A stretch of 39,188 bases of DNA from a virus. Location of the stretch: IMG/VR virus record IMGVR_UViG_3300024999_000221, positions 1 through 39,188 of that record; one strand, written 5' to 3'. The translations under genes and the position numbers were made by a program. Shown piece by piece: positions 2,549-31,715 of this stretch. A model generated the notes under the pieces. The model made no database searches. It was not told where the DNA came from and saw only the letters and a program-made list of their open reading frames with translations. The stretch's first letter is position 1. Each line of letters opens with the position of its first letter.

Positions 2549-2675
2549 AAATAATTGAATGAATTAAAAGATACCACGCTCCGAATAAGATAACCGACCC
2601 GCATATCTTATCCATTACCCTATCTGTCTTTTGTTGTCGTCTTTTCTCTCTATATTCTAATAATGTTTCCTGCAT
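2529..2675 (-). CDS. Small single-pass membrane protein, 48 aa
   Basis: The frame starts MQETLLEYREKRRQQKTDRV and continues into a hydrophobic segment (residues 24-45, VILFGAWYLLIHSIIYV), giving a basic cytoplasmic head and one membrane helix. It is the first start codon after the early promoter and structured leader. The same frame stays open for another 32 codons upstream (to 2771) without ATG, GTG or TTG. Its 3' end overlaps the next gene by 20 bases. Small membrane proteins in this position are often host-interaction factors; the function is unknown. Confidence 0.5.
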   Translation of the reverse strand: MQETLLEYREKRRQQKTDRVMDKICGSVILFGAWYLLIHSIIYVSRIF

Positions 2676-2695
2676 AGTTTTTTGCGGTGCGGTGA

Positions 2696-2739
2696 GGGAG
2701 TTCGCAAAAGCCAGTAATACCAGCTCTCCGTTTGCTCCC
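2696..2739 (-). promoter_or_regulatory. Leader hairpin upstream of the first early gene
   Basis: On the minus strand GGGAGCAAA can pair with TTTGC-GAAC-TCCC, with inner pairing AGAGC/GCTTT, giving a long hairpin with one small internal loop. It lies in the 172-base transcribed leader between the early promoter and the ATG at 2675. A GGAGG sequence at 2756-2760 has no start codon at a usable distance, so this part of the leader is more likely RNA structure than a gene. Confidence 0.45.
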
Positions 2740-2780
2740 TTGCCTACTGAAGTTTCCTCCAGCCCGCCTTGTTAAGCAAA

Positions 2781-2843
2781 AGTCCCGCTTCTTGGTAAAA
2801 GAGGGGCGGGACTCGTGCTTTATATAAAAATGCCTCTTTTACC
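2781..2843 (-). terminator. Interleaved stems: attenuator or pseudoknot in the early leader
   Basis: Two perfect inverted repeats interlock. AGTCCCGC/GCGGGACT (2781-2788 with 2806-2813) forms a hairpin followed on the minus strand by TTTTGCTT, a terminator-like end. GGTAAAAGAGG/CCTCTTTTACC (2794-2804 with 2833-2843) pairs the loop of that hairpin with sequence further upstream. In RNA order this is a-b-a'-b', so it can form either an attenuator switch or an H-type pseudoknot. The start predicted from the adjacent promoter falls just before the first arm. Confidence 0.6.
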
Positions 2844-2852
2844 GTGCTTTAA

Positions 2853-2881
2853 AGTATATGCTATTTAGTTTTTAATGTCAA
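2853..2881 (-). promoter_or_regulatory. Near-consensus sigma-70 promoter of the early unit
   Basis: The minus strand has TTGACA (2876-2881), exactly 17 bases, then TATACT (2853-2858): eleven of twelve consensus positions at ideal spacing. Initiation would be near 2845-2847, at the first base of the structured leader. The -35 box overlaps the stop of the gene at 2878-3078. A 9-bp direct repeat, CGTGCTTTA, occurs at 2814-2822 and 2843-2851 just downstream. Confidence 0.7.
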
Positions 2882-3078
2882 TAGAAGTTATCCCCAGCCC
2901 TCATTTTGGCTATTTCGTCCTCCGGCGCGAAAGTCATTACTGTTCCCGTTGGAAAAACAATCTTCAAAGCTCGTTTATCTTTTCTCATAAAAATTGTCGT
3001 GCCGAAAGTTGTTACTTCGTCCATAATCACTCTTTCGTAATCAGGAAATCTTTTTGTTTTCTTTTGATTTTTTTTCAT
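2878..3078 (-). CDS. Hypothetical protein, 66 aa
   Basis: The protein has a basic N-terminus (MKKNQKKTKRFPDYERVIMD) and a beta-rich middle (TTIFMRKDKRALKIVFPTG). It is not recognised. The start overlaps the methyltransferase stop by four bases (ATGA), so it is the last gene of the DNA-metabolism unit. Its stop overlaps the -35 box of the early promoter. Confidence 0.55.
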   Translation of the reverse strand: MKKNQKKTKRFPDYERVIMDEVTTFGTTIFMRKDKRALKIVFPTGTVMTFAPEDEIAKMRAGDNFY

Positions 3079-5427: not shown

Positions 5428-5756
5428 ACATCATCTGGGGATAACTTTTTAATTACATCTTCCAATGTTCTGGCAATGAAATATACCCCGCCGGCTTTTT
5501 CAAATTGCTCTTGAAATGCCTTTTGGCTCTCGCTTTGTTTGCCTTTTTCATTTTTCACTTCGCAAGCGTAGATTATGCTTTTGCGTAATATGAATATATC
5601 GGGTGCTCCAATAATGCCGATCCAGTAGAAACCGCCAGCATCGGTTTTAAACGCTCCGCTGTTTTGCCGCCACGCAAAGATTTTTCTTAATTTTAAATAT
5701 TCTAAAATAACTTTTTGAATATCTTTTTCTTTAATTGTCGGTTTTCTCTCTTTCAT
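5424..5756 (-). CDS. VRR-NUC family nuclease, 110 aa
   Basis: The VRR-NUC signature is visible: GAPD (residues 50-53), E-V-K (66-68), then Q (74/78), the metal-binding and catalytic core of this PD-(D/E)XK branch. Stand-alone phage members are thought to cut branched DNA such as Holliday junctions, so it may resolve replication intermediates before packaging. The start at 5756 (MKERKPTIKEKD) fits the family length; upstream in-frame sequence lies inside the neighbouring gene. It overlaps that gene by 26 bases. Confidence 0.8.
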   Translation of the reverse strand: MKERKPTIKEKDIQKVILEYLKLRKIFAWRQNSGAFKTDAGGFYWIGIIGAPDIFILRKSIIYACEVKNEKGKQSESQKAFQEQFEKAGGVYFIARTLEDVIKKLSPDDV

Positions 5757-5937
5757 AAAACATTTTCCGCCACTTGCTAAAAGGCATTCCTTTGGGAGAA
5801 GAAGGCGGTTTTTTCTTTGACGAGATATTTCCGCTATGGGAGCTGGTGTGTAAATTATGACAGTAACTTTTCTCAATCGTTTCTTTAATTGTGGATTGCA
5901 CGCCGCAAATATCGCAGGTGAATAATGGGTCTTTCAT
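5731..5937 (-). CDS. Small Cys/His protein, 68 aa
   Basis: The N-terminus has CDICGVQST, then YCHNLHTSSH, a plausible zinc-binding site. The rest is basic (SSKKKPPSSPKGMPFSKW). The start overlaps the preceding stop by four bases. I infer nucleic-acid binding from charge and ligands only. It sits directly before the VRR-NUC gene. Confidence 0.5.
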   Translation of the reverse strand: MKDPLFTCDICGVQSTIKETIEKSYCHNLHTSSHSGNISSKKKPPSSPKGMPFSKWRKMFYEREKTDN

Positions 5938-6140
5938 ATTTTATCACGGTAATTTAATTCAATCCTCTCATTACCAAAATCGTTTTGCGTGCAATAAAGC
6001 TCATCAGCGTGAAGTTTGTCGGAGATAATTAAGCCATTTTGAACCACGCCGAAACAAGACGGGCATCCGCACCCGCTATCATCGCGAAATATCCGCTTTC
6101 CGATCCTTGCTGTGAACCATTTCAAAGTATGGTGGGTCAT
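5934..6140 (-). CDS. Conserved phage hypothetical protein, 68 aa
   Basis: The protein begins MTHHTLKWFTARIGKRIFRD and has a CGCPSC cluster followed by NGLIISDKLHADELYCTQND. This arrangement (basic start, Cys cluster, ISDKLHA, YRDK end) is one I recognise in many phages, without a known function. The start at 6140 is preferred because it overlaps the lysozyme stop as ATGA. Confidence 0.65.
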   Translation of the reverse strand: MTHHTLKWFTARIGKRIFRDDSGCGCPSCFGVVQNGLIISDKLHADELYCTQNDFGNERIELNYRDKI

Positions 6141-6598
6141 TTTTGTATTAACAAATAGCACGACCAAGGTTGAAACCCCCGTCTCTGATACATCTCAAAC
6201 GCCACATTCAAGTTATATTTCCAATTAAATAATTCCTCGTTATAAGGCGCATTAATTTGAGCAATACCTTGTGAAGGCCAACCTGTTATCGTAGCGTCTT
6301 GCCAATTAATGGCTTCCGACCGGAAGTTACTCTCACAAGCCACGATTTTAATCATCGTTTCGGCCTGATTGCCCCATAATACACGAATATAGGTCTTGAT
6401 GTCGTCTGATGGCGTGGCGGGGCGATTAGAGGCCATAGCCGGCATTTCTATCGGCGACCCTGCCTGCCAAGTTTCGTAATAATCTTTAGTTTCAGTTTTT
6501 AGAAGACGGCCGTTACTGATAACACTTATCCTTTCGCCTTCCGCTTTTAACGATAGAAGCAAAAAAAGCAAAAATATGAGGAATATCAATAAGACCAT
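6137..6598 (-). CDS. Lysozyme-like (SLT) peptidoglycan hydrolase with signal-anchor, 153 aa
   Basis: The first ~20 residues (VLLIFLIFLLFLLLSL) form an uninterrupted membrane segment, a signal peptide or anchor. The C-terminal ~70 residues have the lytic transglycosylase pattern: IVACESNFRSEAINW with the catalytic Glu, then GWPSQGIAQINAPY, then FEMYQRRGFQPWSCY. This would cleave the glycan backbone in the periplasm or outside. ATG 6598 is taken as start; a TTG five codons upstream is the alternative. The gene is part of the lysis cluster. Confidence 0.75.
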   Translation of the reverse strand: MVLLIFLIFLLFLLLSLKAEGERISVISNGRLLKTETKDYYETWQAGSPIEMPAMASNRPATPSDDIKTYIRVLWGNQAETMIKIVACESNFRSEAINWQDATITGWPSQGIAQINAPYNEELFNWKYNLNVAFEMYQRRGFQPWSCYLLIQK

Positions 6599-6644
6599 CC
6601 TTCCGGTGCGCAATAAAATATGTCATTAAATTAAGTTATAGTAT

Positions 6645-6869
6645 TTAGTTTTTTACAATCTTGGAATGATCGTAAAGGCCGGACGCTGTCAGGCCGAATA
6701 TAACGCCTTTCACCGCTCCTTCAACCGACAATCCCGAAAGGATTATCCCTCCGACAATCCCGAAAAACAAGGAAATCAACGGCGTATATTTATCGTTGAT
6801 GTATCCTTTCATCATCTGGGTTAGTCCGATGACTAATCCGATGGCTACCGCGTCGTCAATGTATTGCAT
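6645..6869 (-). CDS. Holin-like membrane protein, 74 aa
   Basis: There are two to three hydrophobic segments (AVAIGLVIGLTQMM; YTPLISLFFGIVGGIILSGL; GAVKGVIFGLTASGLY) and a charged C-terminus (DHSKIVKN), the topology of small phage holins. It lies directly upstream of the lysozyme gene, where a holin would be expected to time release of the enzyme. The leader contains one copy of a repeated hairpin (6878-6905). Confidence 0.65.
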   Translation of the reverse strand: MQYIDDAVAIGLVIGLTQMMKGYINDKYTPLISLFFGIVGGIILSGLSVEGAVKGVIFGLTASGLYDHSKIVKN

Positions 6870-6905: not shown

Positions 6906-7123
6906 CTAAGATTTATTTCAAGATCAACAATCTCAACTGGCTCCGGCTCTTCTTTCCCAGCGATAAATTGAGGCATTATAAAATGGACTTCTGGTGAACT
7001 TAATGTTTTTAATCTCACACCACACTCACACTCATAACTATCATCGCATTGATACCCTTTGTTTTTATCATCGCCTAATCCGCAACCACCTCCTGTGTGT
7101 TGGAATAAGTGTATATGTTTCAT
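6899..7123 (-). CDS. Small Cys/His-rich protein, 74 aa
   Basis: The N-terminal half has several metal-type residues (HIHLFQHTGGGCGLGD, then CDDSYECECGVRL), suggesting a zinc site. The C-terminal half is acidic and Pro-rich. It is not recognised. The gene is bracketed by near-identical hairpin repeats at 6878-6905 and 7133-7162, so it may be a mobile cassette. No Shine-Dalgarno sequence is visible at the start. Confidence 0.5.
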   Translation of the reverse strand: MKHIHLFQHTGGGCGLGDDKNKGYQCDDSYECECGVRLKTLSSPEVHFIMPQFIAGKEEPEPVEIVDLEINLSK

Positions 7124-7128
7124 AAAAT
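7100..7128 (+). promoter_or_regulatory. Plus-strand promoter candidate before the structured RNA
   Basis: TTGGAA (7100-7105), 17 bases, then TAAAAT (7123-7128): nine of twelve consensus positions. Initiation would fall near 7135, at the first hairpin of the structured segment. Chance matches of this quality occur in A+T-rich DNA, so this is only supportive. Confidence 0.3.
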
Positions 7129-7132
7129 TCCC

Positions 7133-7162
7133 GCTAAATTCGCATAGTTAGCGTGTTATTTG
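7133..7162 (-). repeat. Repeated leader hairpin, copy 2
   Basis: GCTAAATTCGCATAG followed by TTAGCGTGTTATTTG on the plus strand, matching 6878-6905. It lies directly upstream of the 74-aa gene and at the edge of the structured RNA segment. Confidence 0.65.
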
Positions 7163-7433
7163 TTTATAATCAATCTTACGGGCAAGCAGGTCAGTGCCTA
7201 TACCCGTAAAATCGCTGTCCCCAAGATTAACGCTTGGACGCTCGGCAAGAGATGACCGCTCTTGCCAGCAAACGCGCTAATTCTTAGTCATCGGACAGAA
7301 ACTTCTAAGATATACGCGAAGCAAGTAATATTCCCAGTTATTCGCTGGCGGGGAAGGCGACCTGTTCGGCGACTCGCCACCCGCGCTAAGGGTTGGATTC
7401 CCCCGTCAGTGAACAAATCTAATCTTGTTTTTT
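7135..7433 (+). ncRNA. Candidate structured noncoding RNA with long-range and pseudoknot pairing
   Basis: This ~295-base gene-free segment is ~53% G+C in a ~40% genome and folds densely. Perfect stems are 7176-7182/7203-7209, 7221-7225/7233-7237, 7244-7251/7259-7266, 7282-7287/7305-7310, 7356-7360/7374-7378 and 7379-7382/7390-7393. A 10-bp closing helix joins 7158-7167 to 7409-7418, and 7347-7353 pairs with 7401-7407. CTGTCC (7215-7220) can pair with GGACAG in a hairpin loop (7293-7298), and loop GGTCA (7189-7193) with loop TGACC (7253-7257). Several hairpins have 7-base loops. The wobble pairs are G-U only if the RNA is read from the plus strand, and a T-run follows at 7428-7433. It is not recognised as tRNA, tmRNA or RNase P. 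Confidence 0.55.
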
Positions 7434-8598: not shown

Positions 8599-8618
8599 TC
8601 AAATTGGGGATAACTTTT

Positions 8619-11708: not shown

Positions 11709-13166
11709 TTATTCTATGACTTTATATTTCATTCCGCTTGAAGTCGCACCTTCAAGAATTATTTTGCCCCCAGTTTCATTTAATAGTTCATCAACAGATT
11801 GATATGCGTTGCCAGACGCTTTTCTTAATGCTGAATACACAAGGTCTCTATTGGCTTTTTTGCTTGCTAAAACTTCATCAGAATCTCCCGCTTGCGGAAG
11901 ATATTGCTGTCTTGCTTCAACAAACTCCGAATTGGCGATAACTGCGCCGGATTCTCGGCGGAGTTTCGCGTTGATAAAGTTTCTCGCGGCTTGCATATAT
12001 TGCTGAATGTCAGTGCTTTGAAATGCTGAAGGAAGTTTAAGTTGCGCGGCAAACGAAATATAATTCATATTTTTAATAGAATCCTGCAATGATTCAATCA
12101 TCGGGTTTGCCTGTTCTATTCTTGCGGCATACTCTGACACAGTTTGTTGGGCTTGTGTGGGAGCTTTTATATTTTGTTCTTTAAGCCAATTAGCGTAAGT
12201 TCCAGGTTTGCCCGCAAGTTCCCATTCTTGATAACTGACCGGCGGTTTATAGGTATCTTCTTTCTCCATTTCTTGTTTCTTTAAAGCATAGTTCACCCCA
12301 AACTGTCTTTTATCTTCTTCAAATTTCTTTTGAGCTAAGTCTTGAGAAAATTGCTGTTGTTTAATATCCCCCCGTATTTTTTCAAACTCCAATTCTTGTT
12401 TTTTCAATTCAATGTCTTTTTGGTCTTTTTGGGCATTCATTGCTTCAGCCAATACTTGCGTCGGCACGCCGGCTTGCATCGCGGTCTGCGCCAGTTGCGT
12501 TTGAGCTGAAGGGCTTAATTGATCCCAACCCATTCCGTCAAATTGTTGTAAAATCGTCCCGAATACTTGTCGGGCATTATCCGATAGTTTTAAAGAATAA
12601 TCCAAAATACTTTGATTTATTCTCTGTTGGTTTTCTTCAATCTTTTGTATCCGGTCAAGGTCTGTTTCAGCGAATCCAAGAACCGCTTTTGCTTTAGCCA
12701 TTATTCCTTCCCGTTTGGCGAATTCAAAACCTAACGCTTTTTGTTTGCTTTCCAGTTGAGCCAAAACATCTCCCCGTTCCAGTTGGGCTTGTCTTTGTAA
12801 AGCAGATTGCTGACCGGTGATAAGAGGCATAGCGATTCTTTGCTGTTCAATGTTTAAAAGTCCTTTCTGCTCGCTTTGGCGAAGGTTTGACAGTTCGGTT
12901 TCTAAATCTATTGATTCCTGTTGAAGCTGTTGCTCCCGCGCGGTCTGTTGGAATGAAGTCAGATATTCCTGCCGTCTTTGCTGGAGTTCATTTTCTATTC
13001 TTTGCCTGTCGGCCGAAGGAGGCCGGTTGAAAAAGTCCGGCGTGATGACATCGGGAATGTTGATGGCCGGATAAGTTGGTTGAGGAACTGCGGGAACTGC
13101 TCCATTTTTTTCTTGGAGTTGAGTCTGTCCGCCGCCTTCTCGGTTGATTGGAAGTATTTCTGCCAT
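11709..13166 (-). CDS. Coiled-coil, Gln-rich ejection or internal virion protein, 485 aa
   Basis: The N-terminal ~60 residues are Pro-rich. Residues ~50-330 are a long Gln/Glu/Lys coiled coil. The C-terminal ~130 residues (QYMQAARNFINAKLRRESG) form a more ordered helical part that I have seen in podovirus-like internal proteins. It would form the second component of the ejection machinery with the following gene, from which it is separated by one base. No peptidase or transglycosylase motif is visible. Confidence 0.5.
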   Translation of the reverse strand: MAEILPINREGGGQTQLQEKNGAVPAVPQPTYPAINIPDVITPDFFNRPPSADRQRIENELQQRRQEYLTSFQQTAREQQLQQESIDLETELSNLRQSEQKGLLNIEQQRIAMPLITGQQSALQRQAQLERGDVLAQLESKQKALGFEFAKREGIMAKAKAVLGFAETDLDRIQKIEENQQRINQSILDYSLKLSDNARQVFGTILQQFDGMGWDQLSPSAQTQLAQTAMQAGVPTQVLAEAMNAQKDQKDIELKKQELEFEKIRGDIKQQQFSQDLAQKKFEEDKRQFGVNYALKKQEMEKEDTYKPPVSYQEWELAGKPGTYANWLKEQNIKAPTQAQQTVSEYAARIEQANPMIESLQDSIKNMNYISFAAQLKLPSAFQSTDIQQYMQAARNFINAKLRRESGAVIANSEFVEARQQYLPQAGDSDEVLASKKANRDLVYSALRKASGNAYQSVDELLNETGGKIILEGATSSGMKYKVIE

Positions 13167-15504: not shown

Positions 15505-16257
15505 TTAAGTAAGTCTGATTGCTAAAAATAAAGTCAATCCTTTGGATTTTGTGGTGTGATTCGTATCAATATCCACCGTGATTATTCCCCCAGCCGTTAC
15601 CGCTGTCGTAGTCAATCCGGGGGCTGTTCCTGAATAATCTCTTGTGCTTTTTTCAGTAGAGTCCCATTTCAATTTATTGGTTGTCATTATCGTTGAGCCA
15701 TTTAGATTGACATCCACGATAGCCGTGCCAGTCGTGCCTGCGGTGTCCACATCGGCTTCTATATCTACAATCGTGCCAGTGAAAGGTATGACTAAATCAC
15801 CGCCTACCGCCGCAGTTGCGTCAGCGTCCCAGTCGGTTGCTTTGGCGATAACTCTAAAAAGAATATAGCGGACATTCCTCGCCGAAGCGACAAACTGGTC
15901 AATCGGTATGGCTCGCCCAGTATCCGTGCCTGTGTCTATCTCGGCAGTGGTGGCAAGCTCCACTTTACCGGCCGCAGTCAAAGAAGCGGCCGCCACAATA
16001 TCAGTAACATCGGAGTCCACTGATACAACGCCGGTATCCGCTCGTAAAACACCGGTCAGTCCGACTGGCACAGTTACCGTTCCCGTAAAAGTCGGAGAGG
16101 CTTTTGGCGCTAAATCCGTTGTCAGGTTGGCTTTTGTAATCTTGCGAGTTGAGCCGTTAGCGCTTTGAGTCGTGTCGCTTATATCCACGACAGGAATTAA
16201 ATCTCCGTCTGCTATCGCTCCCGAAGCCGTCAAATTGTATATGCTTGTATCAGCCAT
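15505..16257 (-). CDS. Tail fibre-like protein, 250 aa
   Basis: The N-terminus follows a widespread phage fibre pattern (ASGAIADGDLIPVVDISDTT, then PTFTGTVTVP), with short Thr/Ala/Gly/Val-rich repeats. Cysteine and tryptophan are nearly absent. The C-terminal half is a beta-structured domain (IVDIEADVDTAGTTG). It is probably a trimeric fibre or its adaptor. The gene overlaps the 66-aa repeat protein by one base. Confidence 0.6.
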   Translation of the reverse strand: MADTSIYNLTASGAIADGDLIPVVDISDTTQSANGSTRKITKANLTTDLAPKASPTFTGTVTVPVGLTGVLRADTGVVSVDSDVTDIVAAASLTAAGKVELATTAEIDTGTDTGRAIPIDQFVASARNVRYILFRVIAKATDWDADATAAVGGDLVIPFTGTIVDIEADVDTAGTTGTAIVDVNLNGSTIMTTNKLKWDSTEKSTRDYSGTAPGLTTTAVTAGGIITVDIDTNHTTKSKGLTLFLAIRLT

Positions 16258-16457
16258 TATGTATTGCGCGCTTGATTAGAATAACTGGCGGTGTTTTTTG
16301 ATTGGTTGGAATAACCGGTTAAAGTTTCCATTCTGATTTTGTCTCCACTCTCCATTAAAATCGCGTCTCCGCTTTCCATCAAAATATCGTCAAAAGCAAC
16401 ATTTCTTGTTTGATTAGAATAACTGGCGGTGTTTTTAGTTTGATTGGTGTAAGCCAT
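16257..16457 (-). CDS. Tandem-repeat virion protein, 66 aa
   Basis: The unit YSNQTKNTA / YSNQTRN recurs four times, two at each end, around a central repeat ILMESGD-AILMESGD-KIRMET. The repeat period of 8-9 residues suggests a short beta-fibre or stapling peptide. It is located between adaptor and fibre genes with one-base overlaps. I recall similar NQTKN-type repeat proteins in other phage tail modules, without known function. Confidence 0.6.
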   Translation of the reverse strand: MAYTNQTKNTASYSNQTRNVAFDDILMESGDAILMESGDKIRMETLTGYSNQSKNTASYSNQARNT

Positions 16458-17152
16458 TATGAATAATCCTCCGGGATAATGTTAAATCTCACCCGTTTAT
16501 CGCGGGACTTTTTACCGTAAAAACTTATCAATCCTTTTTGCAAATCCGTAATCTGCGCTTGGAGGTGATTCATTACGGGAAGTCCTTTAGCCAAAGCGTA
16601 ATCGTAAGCCGCGCCCAGAGAGAGGAGGCGATGAAAGGTTGAAGGAAATCCCGGCTCTTGCGTGGTGTCGTTGGCCGTGAAGTAATCCGGCTCGCGCAGG
16701 AAATACACTTTCAAGCCGTTGGTTGAAGCATAACTGGGCGCGGGGTAAAGAAAAATAGAATTGGCTAATTTATCGTAATAAATCGGAGTAGAGGCGGTTT
16801 CAAAAAATTCTCCGAGTGCGATAGAAACATCCTTTTGGTCTAAAGGCTTGAGTAAAATCCAATCCCCCGCGGAATCCTTGCATTCCACGCGAGTGATAGT
16901 GAGAGAAGTCGGTTCGGGATAATCTTGCTGGGAAGCGACCAGATTGATTGTTCCTATGGGCAAATCAGTCTGATTGGTGTCGTCCCATTGCCAATCATCC
17001 TGCGCTTCTAAAATCCACCCGATAACGCGGTTATACCACTCATTGATATTACGGGTTTTTTGAGCGGTGGGATAAGAAGTGGAGTTCGTATTAACTAAAA
17101 AATCTATGTCTTCAACTATGCCTAATTTGTTGGTTGAATCGCTGAATACCAA
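16457..17152 (-). CDS. Head-tail adaptor/connector protein, 231 aa
   Basis: The helical N-terminus (NINEWYNRVIGWILEAQDDW) is followed by LPIGTINLVASQQDYPEP, ITRVECKD, PIYYDKLANSIFLYPAPS, and FHRLLSLGAAYDYALAKG. This order matches P22 gp4/T7 gp11-like adaptor proteins that sit under the portal and recruit the tail. The start is TTG at 17152; there is no in-frame ATG nearby. Transcription from the promoter at 17174-17202 would give a leader of about 15 bases. Confidence 0.65.
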   Translation of the reverse strand: MVFSDSTNKLGIVEDIDFLVNTNSTSYPTAQKTRNINEWYNRVIGWILEAQDDWQWDDTNQTDLPIGTINLVASQQDYPEPTSLTITRVECKDSAGDWILLKPLDQKDVSIALGEFFETASTPIYYDKLANSIFLYPAPSYASTNGLKVYFLREPDYFTANDTTQEPGFPSTFHRLLSLGAAYDYALAKGLPVMNHLQAQITDLQKGLISFYGKKSRDKRVRFNIIPEDYS

Positions 17153-17244: not shown

Positions 17245-18329
17245 CGGTCAGCGGCTGCAAAGAAATCCGCAACTTTCCCCGCGATGTGTTGAATATCTTC
17301 TTTAATTAAAGAAGTATAGGTAGGCAAATAAAATCCCCGTTTTGAAAATTTATGCGCGTTTAATTTTTCGTATTCTTTTTCCACTCCCGCCGGGTGAACT
17401 CCATTGTAATACATCGGTTGCATACTCATCGGTTTAAAATAATGGCGAGTGTCAATTTCGTTCTTTTTCAAGTAAACCATTAAATCATCTTTATGTTCTT
17501 CGGGAACTAAAATATCATACACCCAGAGCATTTTTCTTTTAGGCATTATGGTTACTTGTTTAATGTCTTTAAACGCTTCGTCATACCATTCTTCAATCCG
17601 CGCTCTTTTGGCAAGGAATTCGTCAAGCCGTTCCAGTTGCGCGCAAAGTATGGCGGCTTGGAAGTTAGTCAGCCGATAATTAAATCCCAATTCTTTATGC
17701 AGAAAAGTATGATTGAGGTCAAAAGCCATATTTTTCAAATATCGCAATCGTTCTTCCAAATATGGATTATCGGTAATACAAATCCCTCCTTCCCCTGAAG
17801 TTAAAATCTTATTGGCAAAGAAAGCGTAACAGGCTATGTCTCCGCTCGGCTTATGCCCGTGAGCCAGCGCGGCGTCTTCTATGACCCGCAAGTTGTATTT
17901 AGCGGCGATTTTCATAATCGCGTCCATATTGGCTATTCTGCCGAATATATGAACGGGTATGATGGCTTTTGTTTTTTTGGTGATTTTCGCTTCAATCTTA
18001 TCCACATCAATTAAGAGATTGTCATCGCAATCCACGAATACCGGAGTAGCTTTGTTGTAAGTAACCGCCCAAGCGGTGGCGACCATAGTGAATTCCGGCA
18101 CAATTACCTCATCACCTTCGCCGATGCTTAAAGCGGCTACCGCCAAAGCTAACGCGGTCGTTCCTGAAGTCGTCCCCACTCCGTATTTCCGACCGTGCCG
18201 TTCAGCGAAACCTTCTTCAAACAAATCGCAAAATTTTCCGTGCCAAGAGACTTCATTTTTCTCAATCGCTTCTAAAATATATTTTTTTTCATTGCCCGTT
18301 AAATCGGGTTTGGCTATTTCGTATTTCAT
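17235..18329 (-). CDS. PLP-dependent sugar aminotransferase (DegT/DnrJ/EryC1/StrS), probable GDP-perosamine synthase type, 364 aa
   Basis: The family pattern is complete: TSGTTAL (54-60), FTMVATAWAV (80-89), EDAALAHG (151-158), and FFANKILTSGEGG with the PLP lysine at K174. Lysine here indicates transamination; ColD-type dehydratases carry histidine. Length is normal. With a GDP-mannose dehydratase gene two genes upstream, the likely substrate is GDP-4-keto-6-deoxymannose and the product GDP-perosamine. The substrate is inferred from context. It is the last gene of the sugar island. Confidence 0.85.
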   Translation of the reverse strand: MKYEIAKPDLTGNEKKYILEAIEKNEVSWHGKFCDLFEEGFAERHGRKYGVGTTSGTTALALAVAALSIGEGDEVIVPEFTMVATAWAVTYNKATPVFVDCDDNLLIDVDKIEAKITKKTKAIIPVHIFGRIANMDAIMKIAAKYNLRVIEDAALAHGHKPSGDIACYAFFANKILTSGEGGICITDNPYLEERLRYLKNMAFDLNHTFLHKELGFNYRLTNFQAAILCAQLERLDEFLAKRARIEEWYDEAFKDIKQVTIMPKRKMLWVYDILVPEEHKDDLMVYLKKNEIDTRHYFKPMSMQPMYYNGVHPAGVEKEYEKLNAHKFSKRGFYLPTYTSLIKEDIQHIAGKVADFFAAADRNR

Positions 18330-19802: not shown

Positions 19803-20942
19803 CTACACTCGCTTCGTGTTTCCTATTTGTTTAAATTCAGGAAACGGCGTAAGAAACTTCCCGCCTTGAGCGAGCCATTTTTTTTCCCGTTCCTTGAATA
19901 GGTTTATAAATCCGTAAGGCATAACAAAAGCATATTTAAACATTGACAGATTTTCTTCCGGTAAAATGGGGATATTTGACCCGACCATATATTTTCCCCA
20001 TTTCTCTTTGCTTTTGTCTATGGCGCAAACAATGTTTTTTGAGTTCATTCCGTAGTATTGGGCGATGGTATTGCCTTTGGTTGAAGCTCCATAAATACAA
20101 ACATTTTTTCCTTTGATGAATTTCATCGCGTCGGCCTTGTTTTTTTTCATCGCGCCGACAAATTTTTTCCAATCAACTTTCGGTTCTTTATGACGCACGC
20201 TCCCTTTCTGATAATGTCGCGCGTAAAGCCGATAACTCCCGCCGTTGATTTTATTCTCTTTTACTTTGTAAATTTCCAGTCCGTTTTTTTCGTAAAGATA
20301 AACGAGAGACTTGTAATCGTAATACTCAAGATGTTCGGCGCAGATGTTCCCGATGTCGTTCATTTCAACCATTTGCTTGGCGGTCATCAGTTGAGCAATG
20401 AAAACCCCGTCGTCTTTTAAGTGATTTTTAACATTAGAGATAAAACCGTTTGGATTTTTACTGTCGTAAAACATACCGATGGCCGTGATTACATCGGCTT
20501 TGTCGGTTTTCACCTCTTCCCAGAATTTCACGAATACTTTTTCGCAATGCTTTTTAAGTTCTTTAGTCAGATTGGTCGCCGGCTCAACGCCAATCCGCTT
20601 AAATCCTCTGACGAAAGATAAAAGCGCGCCGTCGTTCGCCCCGACATCAATCCAAACGGCTTTTCTTTTTTTAATATCTTTGACGATGCTTTTTAAATCA
20701 TCCGTAATTACTTTATTCAGCCCGCTCCGATACCAGTAATGTTTGGAATACATCAAGTCATAATCCGCCGTGTGCCTCAACTGGACAAGCCCGCAATCTT
20801 TATTTTGGCATTGAGTCATTTCCAACGGCGCTTTGACGCATTTTTTCAGCTCTTTGACGAAAGTGGAAACGCATAAGTTTCCCAATGAGAACAGGGTCTT
20901 TAATTTTTCTCCGCAAACGCGGCAAGTTTTTCGCGTTATCAT
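19803..20942 (-). CDS. Sugar C-methyltransferase-like protein (TylC3/Methyltransf_13+14 type), 379 aa
   Basis: The N-terminus is a zinc-binding domain (CRVCGEKL and CQNKDCGL). The middle is a SAM-binding core (VWIDVGANDGALLSF). The C-terminus contains HLEYYDYKSLVYLYEKNGL and the Rossmann-like NVCIYGASTKGNTIAQYY. This three-part architecture belongs to C-methyltransferases acting on NDP-4-keto sugars. Start 20942 gives an ATGA overlap with the upstream glycosyltransferase. It may methylate the 4-keto product of the gmd step; this is inference. Confidence 0.75.
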   Translation of the reverse strand: MITRKTCRVCGEKLKTLFSLGNLCVSTFVKELKKCVKAPLEMTQCQNKDCGLVQLRHTADYDLMYSKHYWYRSGLNKVITDDLKSIVKDIKKRKAVWIDVGANDGALLSFVRGFKRIGVEPATNLTKELKKHCEKVFVKFWEEVKTDKADVITAIGMFYDSKNPNGFISNVKNHLKDDGVFIAQLMTAKQMVEMNDIGNICAEHLEYYDYKSLVYLYEKNGLEIYKVKENKINGGSYRLYARHYQKGSVRHKEPKVDWKKFVGAMKKNKADAMKFIKGKNVCIYGASTKGNTIAQYYGMNSKNIVCAIDKSKEKWGKYMVGSNIPILPEENLSMFKYAFVMPYGFINLFKEREKKWLAQGGKFLTPFPEFKQIGNTKRV

Positions 20943-21916
20943 AAAACTTTTAAATAATCGGGTAATAATTTTTCCCAAGAATGTTTTTCTCCGTATATTT
21001 TACCATAACTGGAAACTTCCCGCAAGTCATTTTTATTCACCACCTCGTCAATCTTTTCGGCTAAAATCTTGGGGTCTAAAATCGGGTCTTCCACTTCTCT
21101 TAATTTTGCTCCCATTCTTATTTTTCTAAATCCCGAAGGTTTGAATAAAAGTTCTTTGGGCATATATTCGTTAAAAGGAAATATGTCGGTGGTAATCACT
21201 CCCAAACCGGAAACCATCGCTTCCACGATAGGCAAACAAATCCCGTTCGCCCCTTGCGGATAAACCAAAACATCGCCCTCTCTCCATAATTGCCAGTAGT
21301 TTTTGAAATTCACCTGCTGGACTTCCACTCTCGGATCGTTGGCTTGAAACTGTTTCCACGAATAAATAATCAATTTAAAATCGCTTCGGGTATGCTTCAG
21401 GGCGTCTAAAAGCAGTTGCGTGCCTTTTCTCCCGCCCATTCCCGAGTGCGAACCGGAATGAATTAAAGTTTTAACTTCTTTCCTTTCTTTCCAAATCAAT
21501 CTGTCTTCAGCCAAAGGTATCGGCAAATAAACAACCTCCGCGCCAAAATCTTTAAACGTTTCGTAATCAAGTTTAGAAGGGCAGAGCAAAACATCGGGTA
21601 TGTAAGGCAGAGGGTCTAAAGTCATTTCAACCATTGTCATTAAAACAGTCTTAATTCCCCTTGCTCTGGCTTCTTTGACTAATGTCCAATCATAAAACGT
21701 TTCTACGGTGAAAAGAACGTCCAATCCATTCAACCAATCATAATTTATTTTAAATTGCGGCCGGGTTACTTCAAAATCTTTATATCTTTCGGGGAATACC
21801 TGAAATACTCCATTTTCCACTAAAAGTGCTTTTTGGGGTTTCAGATGTCTGGCAAATTCCCAGCTTAAAGTTCCCAATCCCGAATTATCGCCCCGGCATA
21901 TCATTCCTAAATTCAT
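20939..21916 (-). CDS. GT-B glycosyltransferase (GT4-like), 325 aa
   Basis: A two-domain GT-B layout is visible: N-terminal DNSGLGTLSWEFARHL, linker LPIPLAEDRLIW, and C-terminal KTLIHSGSHSGMGGRKGTQLLLDAL, GDVLVYPQGANGICLPIVEAM (the nucleotide-sugar-binding E region) and SGLGVITTD. It transfers a sugar to an unknown acceptor with retention of configuration, as usual in GT4. It overlaps the GT-A gene upstream by 32 bases. Confidence 0.8.
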   Translation of the reverse strand: MNLGMICRGDNSGLGTLSWEFARHLKPQKALLVENGVFQVFPERYKDFEVTRPQFKINYDWLNGLDVLFTVETFYDWTLVKEARARGIKTVLMTMVEMTLDPLPYIPDVLLCPSKLDYETFKDFGAEVVYLPIPLAEDRLIWKERKEVKTLIHSGSHSGMGGRKGTQLLLDALKHTRSDFKLIIYSWKQFQANDPRVEVQQVNFKNYWQLWREGDVLVYPQGANGICLPIVEAMVSGLGVITTDIFPFNEYMPKELLFKPSGFRKIRMGAKLREVEDPILDPKILAEKIDEVVNKNDLREVSSYGKIYGEKHSWEKLLPDYLKVL

Positions 21917-29809: not shown

Positions 29810-31282
29810 TTATATCGCTCCTGTAATAGCAAAATTCCGCCCTATGGTTATCTGCCAGACCTTATCGGCTGTGGCATCTGTGCCAGGGGCTATGTCAAGC
29901 GTAATTGTGGTGGCAGTATGGGCAGTGATGCCGTAAATCCCAGCGGTAATACCTGTCCCTGAAACCAGATATAGAAAATCCCTGCCATCTACAACTGAAC
30001 TAAAATCACCGCCAGATTGAGTCAAAACAGAACCCGAAGTTGTGGCAGTAGTTCCTGTTAATTGAGTTACGCTCGCAAACGCAGGATCAATAGCCGCGTC
30101 ATTAGAACCTTTTTGCCAGTTGGCGGCGGCATTGACATCGTTATCATTATTGAAATAATCATTATAATCGTCAAAACCTTCGGTGTTGGCGTCTATATGG
30201 GATACGCCAGTTGCAAAACCATAAATAATGTTATTTAATACTCTAAAATTAACCGCACCTGCACTTGTAATATCAATACCTATCCCTGTTGTATTTTCAC
30301 TGCCATAAAGAGTATTGTTTTTAACCATTGCAAGATTTACTTTAACTCCTGAAAACCTAATTGCCGCCGTTACACAACTTTCAATGATATTAAAATCAAT
30401 TATTGCCATTACTACTCCAGTGTCTTGTATGCCCATATTACAATCGTGAATATAACAACCAACGATAGAATATCTGCCCGAACCTCCAAAGCCGCTACCT
30501 CTATAAGATATTGCTTCACAATTAAAAGCCATACTATCTCCGCCAGGACCACTGATAGCACTTCTGCTGGCAGTAGTGGAAGTATTAGTTGATTTAACAT
30601 TAACTGCTAAAATCTCTCCATTAGCTATACTTAATCCATTAGATGCTGTTCCGCTAAATCTTAAATTCTTCCAATACCAGCCTGCCGCGCTGGTAAAAGC
30701 ATTTGCCCCGCAAATAAATATCGGTCTATTCGCTCCAGTGGGATTATCGCCTCTGGTAGTTTGGTAGCCATAAACCTTACTTGGATTTGCTCCTGAAGCA
30801 GTAAGAGAAATAGAAACTGCTTCGCCTAAAGTATAACTTCCTGATTTGACATAAAAAGTATTGCCAACAGCAGACGCCTCAAACACATCATCATCTCCGC
30901 TTGCTCCGCTCGTTCCTAAAGATATAGCTCCGCCGACATTCATTACTCCAGTCGCTCCGACACCTATTGAAATAGAAGCTCCTGCGGCGTTAGTTGAGCA
31001 AGTAATGCTAACTCCGACAACAACTGATGTTATTTCAAACCAAGAAACAGTAAAATTGGTGCCTGAAATTACTTTAATTCCATTACCCACCATATCAGCG
31101 GCGGCAGAAGCTGTTAATATAACATTTCCCGCTCCCGAACTCGTCACTCCAGTTAAAGCGTATTGAGGAGCATCTTGTTGGCTAAAATCAGAACCAGAAG
31201 CACCAGCCTTAAAAAAACCTCCGCCAACATTTCCAGCGTTAGCCGATGTTCTAATCTCCCAAATTGAAGCTGCGGCAATCAT
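29810..31282 (-). CDS. Right-handed beta-helix virion protein (pectin-lyase-like fold), 490 aa
   Basis: The middle and C-terminal parts show successive short strands typical of a parallel beta-helix (YWKNLRFSGTASNGLSIANG, YSIVGCYIHDCNMGIQDTG, AIIDFNIIESCVTAAIRFSG, VKNNTLYGSENTTGIGIDI, FRVLNNIIYGFATGVSHID). The N-terminal ~150 residues are Ala/Gly/Ser/Val-rich fibre-like sequence. It is located right after head genes, so it could be a head fibre, a decoration, or a tailspike. Catalytic residues for depolymerase activity cannot be identified. Confidence 0.7.
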   Translation of the reverse strand: MIAAASIWEIRTSANAGNVGGGFFKAGASGSDFSQQDAPQYALTGVTSSGAGNVILTASAAADMVGNGIKVISGTNFTVSWFEITSVVVGVSITCSTNAAGASISIGVGATGVMNVGGAISLGTSGASGDDDVFEASAVGNTFYVKSGSYTLGEAVSISLTASGANPSKVYGYQTTRGDNPTGANRPIFICGANAFTSAAGWYWKNLRFSGTASNGLSIANGEILAVNVKSTNTSTTASRSAISGPGGDSMAFNCEAISYRGSGFGGSGRYSIVGCYIHDCNMGIQDTGVVMAIIDFNIIESCVTAAIRFSGVKVNLAMVKNNTLYGSENTTGIGIDITSAGAVNFRVLNNIIYGFATGVSHIDANTEGFDDYNDYFNNDNDVNAAANWQKGSNDAAIDPAFASVTQLTGTTATTSGSVLTQSGGDFSSVVDGRDFLYLVSGTGITAGIYGITAHTATTITLDIAPGTDATADKVWQITIGRNFAITGAI

Positions 31283-31283
31283 A

Positions 31284-31715
31284 TTATATAATTTCTAACT
31301 TTTTAATTTCCGCGACCTTGATTAAATCTATCGGCTCATCTGATTTTATTTGCGGTATGTCTTCTGGTAAAGGCATTGGCAAGTTAAACTTCGTAAAATA
31401 CTTATGATTAACTGGCATAATTGGTTCGTTTTTTTCATTTATCAGCCAATCATTTTTATCGTTCTGAACGAAAAATCTTCTTTGAGAACAATCAATTATT
31501 GTATTGCCCGCAGGGATAAAAACATTATCCAAATTGCATTTTATGAAAATTACACCAGTCATATCGTCTGGGAATATATGATTATCGGTAATTTCTTGTG
31601 AAAAGCAAGAACCATAAACTACCCCCGACACTTCTAAATTACTTCTTCCAGTGAAGTTTTGAAAAGAATAATCATCATTAAGATTGTATTCAGTTTGATT
31701 GTAAGTTTTAATCAT
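31284..31715 (-). CDS. Hypothetical protein in the head/decoration module, 143 aa
   Basis: The middle has beta-solenoid-like repeats (GVIFIKCNLDNVFIPAGNTI; SGVVYGSCFSQEI), followed by NDWLINEKNEPIMPVN and a Pro-rich end. I have seen this N-W-L-x-N-x3-E-P-x3-V pattern in other phage head regions without known role. It is coupled to the decoration gene by a four-base overlap. Confidence 0.55.
   Translation of the reverse strand: MIKTYNQTEYNLNDDYSFQNFTGRSNLEVSGVVYGSCFSQEITDNHIFPDDMTGVIFIKCNLDNVFIPAGNTIIDCSQRRFFVQNDKNDWLINEKNEPIMPVNHKYFTKFNLPMPLPEDIPQIKSDEPIDLIKVAEIKKLEII

Follow-up and report, generated by a model that had tools for sequence, protein, structure and literature searches.

A compact 128-nt RNA fold, made up of the adjoining hairpins HB (84 nt) and HC (44 nt), lies on the minus strand (7298-7171) of the window, by which we mean the whole IMG/VR virus record analysed here (39,188 bases; 40.2% G+C overall). 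The minus-strand fold, its strand preference and its position in the late operon are well supported, and we tentatively favor the view that the element is a cis-acting intercistronic processing and stability structure of the RNase III type, situated in the late mRNA upstream of the lysis module. The original prediction had described a compact structured RNA of no known class on the plus strand; the structure and the absence of an Rfam match stand, but the strand is the minus one, that is, the coding strand of the late operon.

On the minus strand the combined HB and HC region has an MFE of -60.2 kcal/mol in a structure identical to the centroid (z = -6.16 against dinucleotide shuffles), whereas the lowest energy among 2500 such shuffles is -50.3 kcal/mol. 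In a scan of both strands in 16-nt steps, no other 128-nt stretch of the record is as stable. The same region on the plus strand yields -42.8 kcal/mol (z = -3.48); the fold is thus better than its shuffles on both strands, but much more so on the minus strand. The minus-plus energy gap of -17.4 kcal/mol is matched by 0.25% of the shuffles, and arises because G-U pairs of the minus-strand fold (seven, versus two in the plus-strand fold) turn into A-C mismatches on the plus strand. Both the energies and the wobble pairs therefore speak against the plus-strand assignment. HB is an interrupted duplex of 31 bp, built of five helices of 6, 6, 7, 4 and 8 bp (Table 1), which bears an asymmetric internal loop (3 x 5) and a 7-nt apical loop, CGGUCAU (7258-7252, minus strand). 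HC, separated from it by zero bases, comprises 18 bp in two helices (7214-7201/7184-7171 and 7198-7195/7188-7185) and is capped by a 6-nt loop, CUGACC (7194-7189, minus strand).

Table 1. Coordinates of the structural elements and neighboring genes, numbered from the first base of the window
Feature	Positions	Strand	Description
Hairpin HB	7215-7298	-	MFE = centroid, -38.4 kcal/mol, z -5.16; pair probabilities 0.91-0.99
Helices of HB	7298-7293/7220-7215, 7287-7282/7226-7221, 7280-7274/7233-7227, 7270-7267/7242-7239, 7266-7259/7250-7243	-	
Hairpin HC	7171-7214	-	-21.2 kcal/mol, z -5.69; main helix p 0.97
Probable kissing contact between apical loops	7189-7257	-	GGUCA 7257-7253 (HB) with UGACC 7193-7189 (HC)
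Domain HA, weaker hairpin	7335-7421	ambiguous	Inner stems ACCC(7-nt loop)GGGU and GGCGA/UCGCC
Leader repeat with hairpin HD (7153-7148/7137-7132)	7132-7161	-	Immediately before the 74-aa start codon; HD p 0.75
Alternative closing helix P1	7130-7325	-	7325-7320/7135-7130 and 7319-7313/7146-7140; mutually exclusive with HD
Gene-free intercistronic region	7124-7418	-	Flanked by the 61-aa gene (7604-7419) and the 74-aa gene (7123-6899); from ORF lists and translations
Holin gene	6645-6869	-	Downstream of the element; phrog_1299, E 2.6e-15
Lytic-transglycosylase-like gene	6137-6613	-	Name based on the appearance of the sequence; no Pfam or PHROG match

The apical loops of the two hairpins can form five contiguous Watson-Crick pairs, for which the chance is ~0.005 with random 7- and 6-nt loops; judging from this complementarity, HB and HC are probably locked to each other by an apical kissing contact. 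The stems and complementary segments on which the original prediction was built are present in the sequence, and its kissing pair GGTCA/TGACC is recovered in a better form, namely between these two apical loops (chance ~0.5%). Its pseudoknot CTGTCC/GGACAG dissolves, because the two segments constitute the nested bottom helix of HB, which makes a pseudoknot unnecessary. The long-range helix 7158-7167/7409-7418 is likewise complementary in sequence, but enters the MFE structure of neither strand, being outcompeted by better pairings.

All credible genes of the window are carried by the minus strand, as noted earlier. In the late operon the terminase (38 kb) is followed by the portal, capsid-like, glycan and tail genes and then by an M23 peptidase gene (8598-7828), after which come the 61-aa gene, the gap, the 74-aa gene, the holin, the lytic-transglycosylase-like gene and the replication genes. 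That the gap is free of genes is confirmed by ORF lists and translations, in which 7124-7418 contains no credible ORF and no open frame. The enrichment in G+C, previously put at 53%, holds for the core (52% in 7200-7399) but not for 7133-7433 as a whole (47.8%). ARAGORN detects no tRNA or tmRNA in the window. A degraded gene was considered as the origin of the gap and rejected, there being no open frame and, as the sole resemblance, 37 nt inside HA that recall a dehydrogenase gene. Shine-Dalgarno sites are absent from most genes in the window, whose leaders are A/T-rich, and this suggests a host from a group making little use of such sites; since most genes here do without one, a hidden Shine-Dalgarno site is given no weight as an argument. 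A second long hairpin, rich in A/U, is found on the minus strand at 8697-8622 (stretch z -6.45), shortly before the M23 peptidase gene, whose start is probably ATG 8553.

No minus-strand promoter-like site is found inside the gap or just upstream of it, and no U-run follows HC on the minus strand, as it would in an intrinsic terminator with its stem and U-run. The element is therefore most simply regarded as part of the late mRNA rather than as a separate transcript or a terminator. The same signals bear on the idea of a stand-alone minus-strand small RNA, excised from the late mRNA and acting in trans: the compact, stable and self-contained fold would suit such an RNA, but it has neither a promoter nor a terminator of its own and no conserved copy among the relatives of the phage, and we hold it to be distinctly unlikely. 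An RNA transcribed from the plus strand, the version first proposed, is very improbable. In its favor, the flanking domain HA, which is real but weak, folds slightly better on the plus strand (z -2.75 versus -2.12 on the minus strand, computed over 7335-7416), and a weak promoter-like site and a T-run lie on that strand. However, HB/HC is 17.4 kcal/mol worse there, the supposed promoter at 7100-7128 is at chance level (a 9/12 match; 12 such sites occur in 3 kb, where 7.5 +/- 2.7 would be expected), and the T-run (7428-7433) has no terminator-like stem ahead of it.

On the other side of HC the element adjoins the leader of the 74-aa gene. The leader repeat AAATAACACGCTAA recurs exactly at 6904-6891 (minus strand), ahead of the holin gene, and the 74-aa gene and the holin are each preceded on the minus strand by the longer arrangement AAATAACACGCTAA..ATGCGAATT..AGC (at 7161-7133 and 6904-6878, respectively), which can form a small hairpin. 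An alternative helix, P1, would close HB and HC as a three-way junction; it is part of the MFE structure of the 299-nt fold, and with 24 added bases its p is ~0.2 versus 0.75 for HD. This raises the possibility of a regulatory leader, riboswitch- or sensor-like, in which the kissing HB/HC pair and P1 would form a three-way junction that precludes HD and hides the sequence ahead of the 74-aa start codon, with a ligand, a protein or temperature picking P1 or HD. Such a switch would accommodate the presence of P1 in the 299-nt MFE, the kissing loops and the repetition of the HD leader ahead of the holin; it is nevertheless unlikely, given the low probability of P1 once the 24 further bases are included, the very unequal lengths of HB and HC, the absence of a match to any riboswitch family and the placement of the element ~30 kb into the late operon. 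It is likewise unlikely that HB/HC, together with HD or P1, represents a new class of kissing-loop regulatory RNA, acting as a late-mRNA switch that times the adjacent lysis genes.

The statement that the gap matches no RNA class is borne out by Rfam 15, in which no family reaches its gathering score for the gap and a relaxed search (E up to 10) returns only a meaningless 16.5-bit match to Trp_leader. Queries with the M23, terminase, capsid-like, holin and lytic-transglycosylase-like proteins gave no close or useful relatives of the phage; a hand-made terminase pattern led to G051, a single true relative (47% for both portal and rep, 45% for the capsid-like protein). The portal alignment with G051 in turn uncovered a phage family in viral contigs, with portal identities of 41-49% for the nearer eight and 25-33% for the rest; no portal relatives were found among bacterial genomes, and no cultured member of the family was found. 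In the 12 family records that were read whole, blastn detects no copy of the element. The element covariance model (R1), built from one sequence, so that its failures exclude recognisable copies only, matches just the copy in the window and nothing in 50 + 50 + 16 (116) related viral records. Since neither method located a copy, the element is, as far as these comparisons reach, an orphan with no recognisable counterpart in the relatives read. Matches to the gap in phage DNA are short and attributable to chance, and no plasmid match spans the element. A viral scan for CTGTCC..ATGACCG..GGACAG returned 43 stretches, none of them element-like, a scan with the leader repeat gave two matches, both coincidences within coding sequence, and a genome scan for the HB/HC junction gave eight, approximately the chance number, with a best covariance-model E of 0.39 among them.

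The one resemblance to a gene lies in HA, where 34 of 37 nt (7338-7374) are identical to the final part of a glucose 1-dehydrogenase gene from Sinorhizobium (E 1e-4); the likeness stops there, and would be due either to chance or to a gene fragment. Together with the lack of a homologue and a G+C content above that of the surroundings, it could be taken to mean that the element has no function as RNA, its stable palindromes being sites in DNA or a recent non-functional insert. We regard this as the foremost of the alternatives, although still an unlikely one: the G-U-dependent strand asymmetry and the kissing loops are unexpected of DNA palindromes, and HB/HC matches no dehydrogenase-type gene.

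We rank the RNase III-type structure first because of the length and internal loop of HB, its intercistronic site and the absence of a promoter or terminator; the readings behind it, from more to less likely, are an element that does not act as RNA, a regulatory switch, a small RNA set free from the mRNA, an antiterminator like put and, lastly, a plus-strand RNA. RNase III sites of phages have a similar hairpin length and an asymmetric internal loop. Taking a stem of at least about 20 bp in a phage transcript as the mark of such a site, HB surpasses it with its five stacked helices. The setting between co-directional genes and beside the holin is also supportive, and the second long hairpin, before the M23 peptidase gene, is counted in favor of processing as well. 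We infer action in cis on the mRNA along the following lines. The minus-strand late mRNA would hold HB/HC between the 61-aa gene and a lysis module made up of the 74-aa gene, the holin and the lytic-transglycosylase-like gene. A host RNase of the RNase III type, specific for double strands, would cut or bind the interrupted duplex of HB (~31 bp), and a cut there would detach the message for the lysis genes from the late message that precedes it. The compact HB/HC fold would then shield the new 5' end, and this protection may influence the timing and amount of lysis protein. If the element does process or gate the lysis message, it would offer an RNA-level handle on lysis timing.

The larger value lies in the phage family, several of whose members have structured gene-free regions of up to ~900 nt that match nothing in Rfam, as well as leader RNAs in which a terminator-like hairpin would pair, through its loop, with the first bases of the transcript. 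The longest such region, L231:10380-11330 (minus strand; G051 30380-31330), is almost gene-free over ~900 nt, has a computed energy of -345 kcal/mol (z about -9 to -10) with no Rfam match, and is a candidate giant phage RNA. Other gene-free, strongly structured regions (z -6 to -9) are seen at G113 12325-12917 (L261), G116 5806-6522 (L263), G108 16136-16790 (L257) and G102 20795-21071 (L251); they have no Rfam match, and their mutual similarity amounts to no more than short words. A 355-nt gap between two same-strand ORFs, L232 10657-11011 (z -5.9), looks by eye like a group I intron (..AGGTGTAGAGACTT..AAAGTCCG..), with no Rfam match at gathering score.

The window itself contains a gene-free structured region at 2560-2885 (minus strand), which follows an 11/12 promoter (TTGACA 2881, TATACT 2853), equalled by no other minus-strand site of the window. 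There GGUAAAAGAGG (2843-2833) and CCUCUUUUACC (2804-2794) are complementary, and the latter sits in the loop of a hairpin, AGUCCCGC/GCGGGACU (2813-2806/2788-2781), that is followed by UUU. Thus, 2853-2778 (minus strand) is predicted to be a pseudoknotted terminator-like leader, the first bases of the transcript being complementary to the hairpin loop. The same arrangement, in which the first transcript bases are complementary to a hairpin loop and the hairpin is followed by a U-rich run, is seen in G102 from 20811 on (plus strand; L251) and in G116 from 6066 down (minus strand; L263), with the pairing segments CCUUGCG/CGCAAGG and UUGCUAUAA..CUCACG/CGUGAG..UUAUAGCAA. Read by eye in these three phages, it may merit a study of its own more than the present element does. 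The DnaA-box-like motif TTATCC(A/C)CA occurs in the window at 2888-2896, 5436-5444, 8605-8613 and 17998-18006 (four found versus 0.9 expected), and in several relatives (G102, G104, G113, G116) it precedes strong promoters by a few bases. In G104 a 12/12 promoter lies just before the portal gene (~18716-18640, minus strand; L252) and is followed ~40 nt on by a hairpin plus U7, so that its late operon appears arranged as if attenuated.

Phage operons of the T7 and lambda type have RNase III processing hairpins. HB shares with these its long interrupted hairpin form and its intercistronic location in a phage transcript, but here two abutting hairpins have complementary apical loops, there is no homology, and cleavage is our proposal. 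Purine-type riboswitches have a three-way junction with a closing P1 and kissing P2/P3 loops; our element is similar in its two helices with complementary apical loops and a possible closing P1, but differs in the lack of an Rfam match, its very unequal arms and the low probability of P1 (p ~0.2). The put RNA of phage HK022 consists of two stem-loops within ~70 nt, near early promoters (PMC9378689). As HB and HC, too, are bulged stem-loops lying side by side in a phage transcript (cf. PMC9378689), a put-like nascent-RNA antiterminator is conceivable, in which they would bind RNA polymerase, as put RNA does at the beta' zinc-binding domain to suppress termination, and promote read-through into the lysis genes; a terminator-like hairpin with a U-run (7659-7617) does precede the 61-aa gene. 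However, this sole nearby terminator-like stem is upstream of the element, which therefore could not suppress it, and the element is ~128 nt long, in a late operon and with no early promoter nearby, which makes such a role quite improbable. GOLLD and ROOL are ornate RNAs of ~600-800 nt or more, often near tRNA islands (PMC12286853). The gap of 295 nt is much shorter, lies in a window devoid of tRNAs and is not matched by their Rfam models, but the element shares with GOLLD and ROOL, whose function is likewise obscure (PMC12286853), both its phage origin and its probable use of kissing loops.
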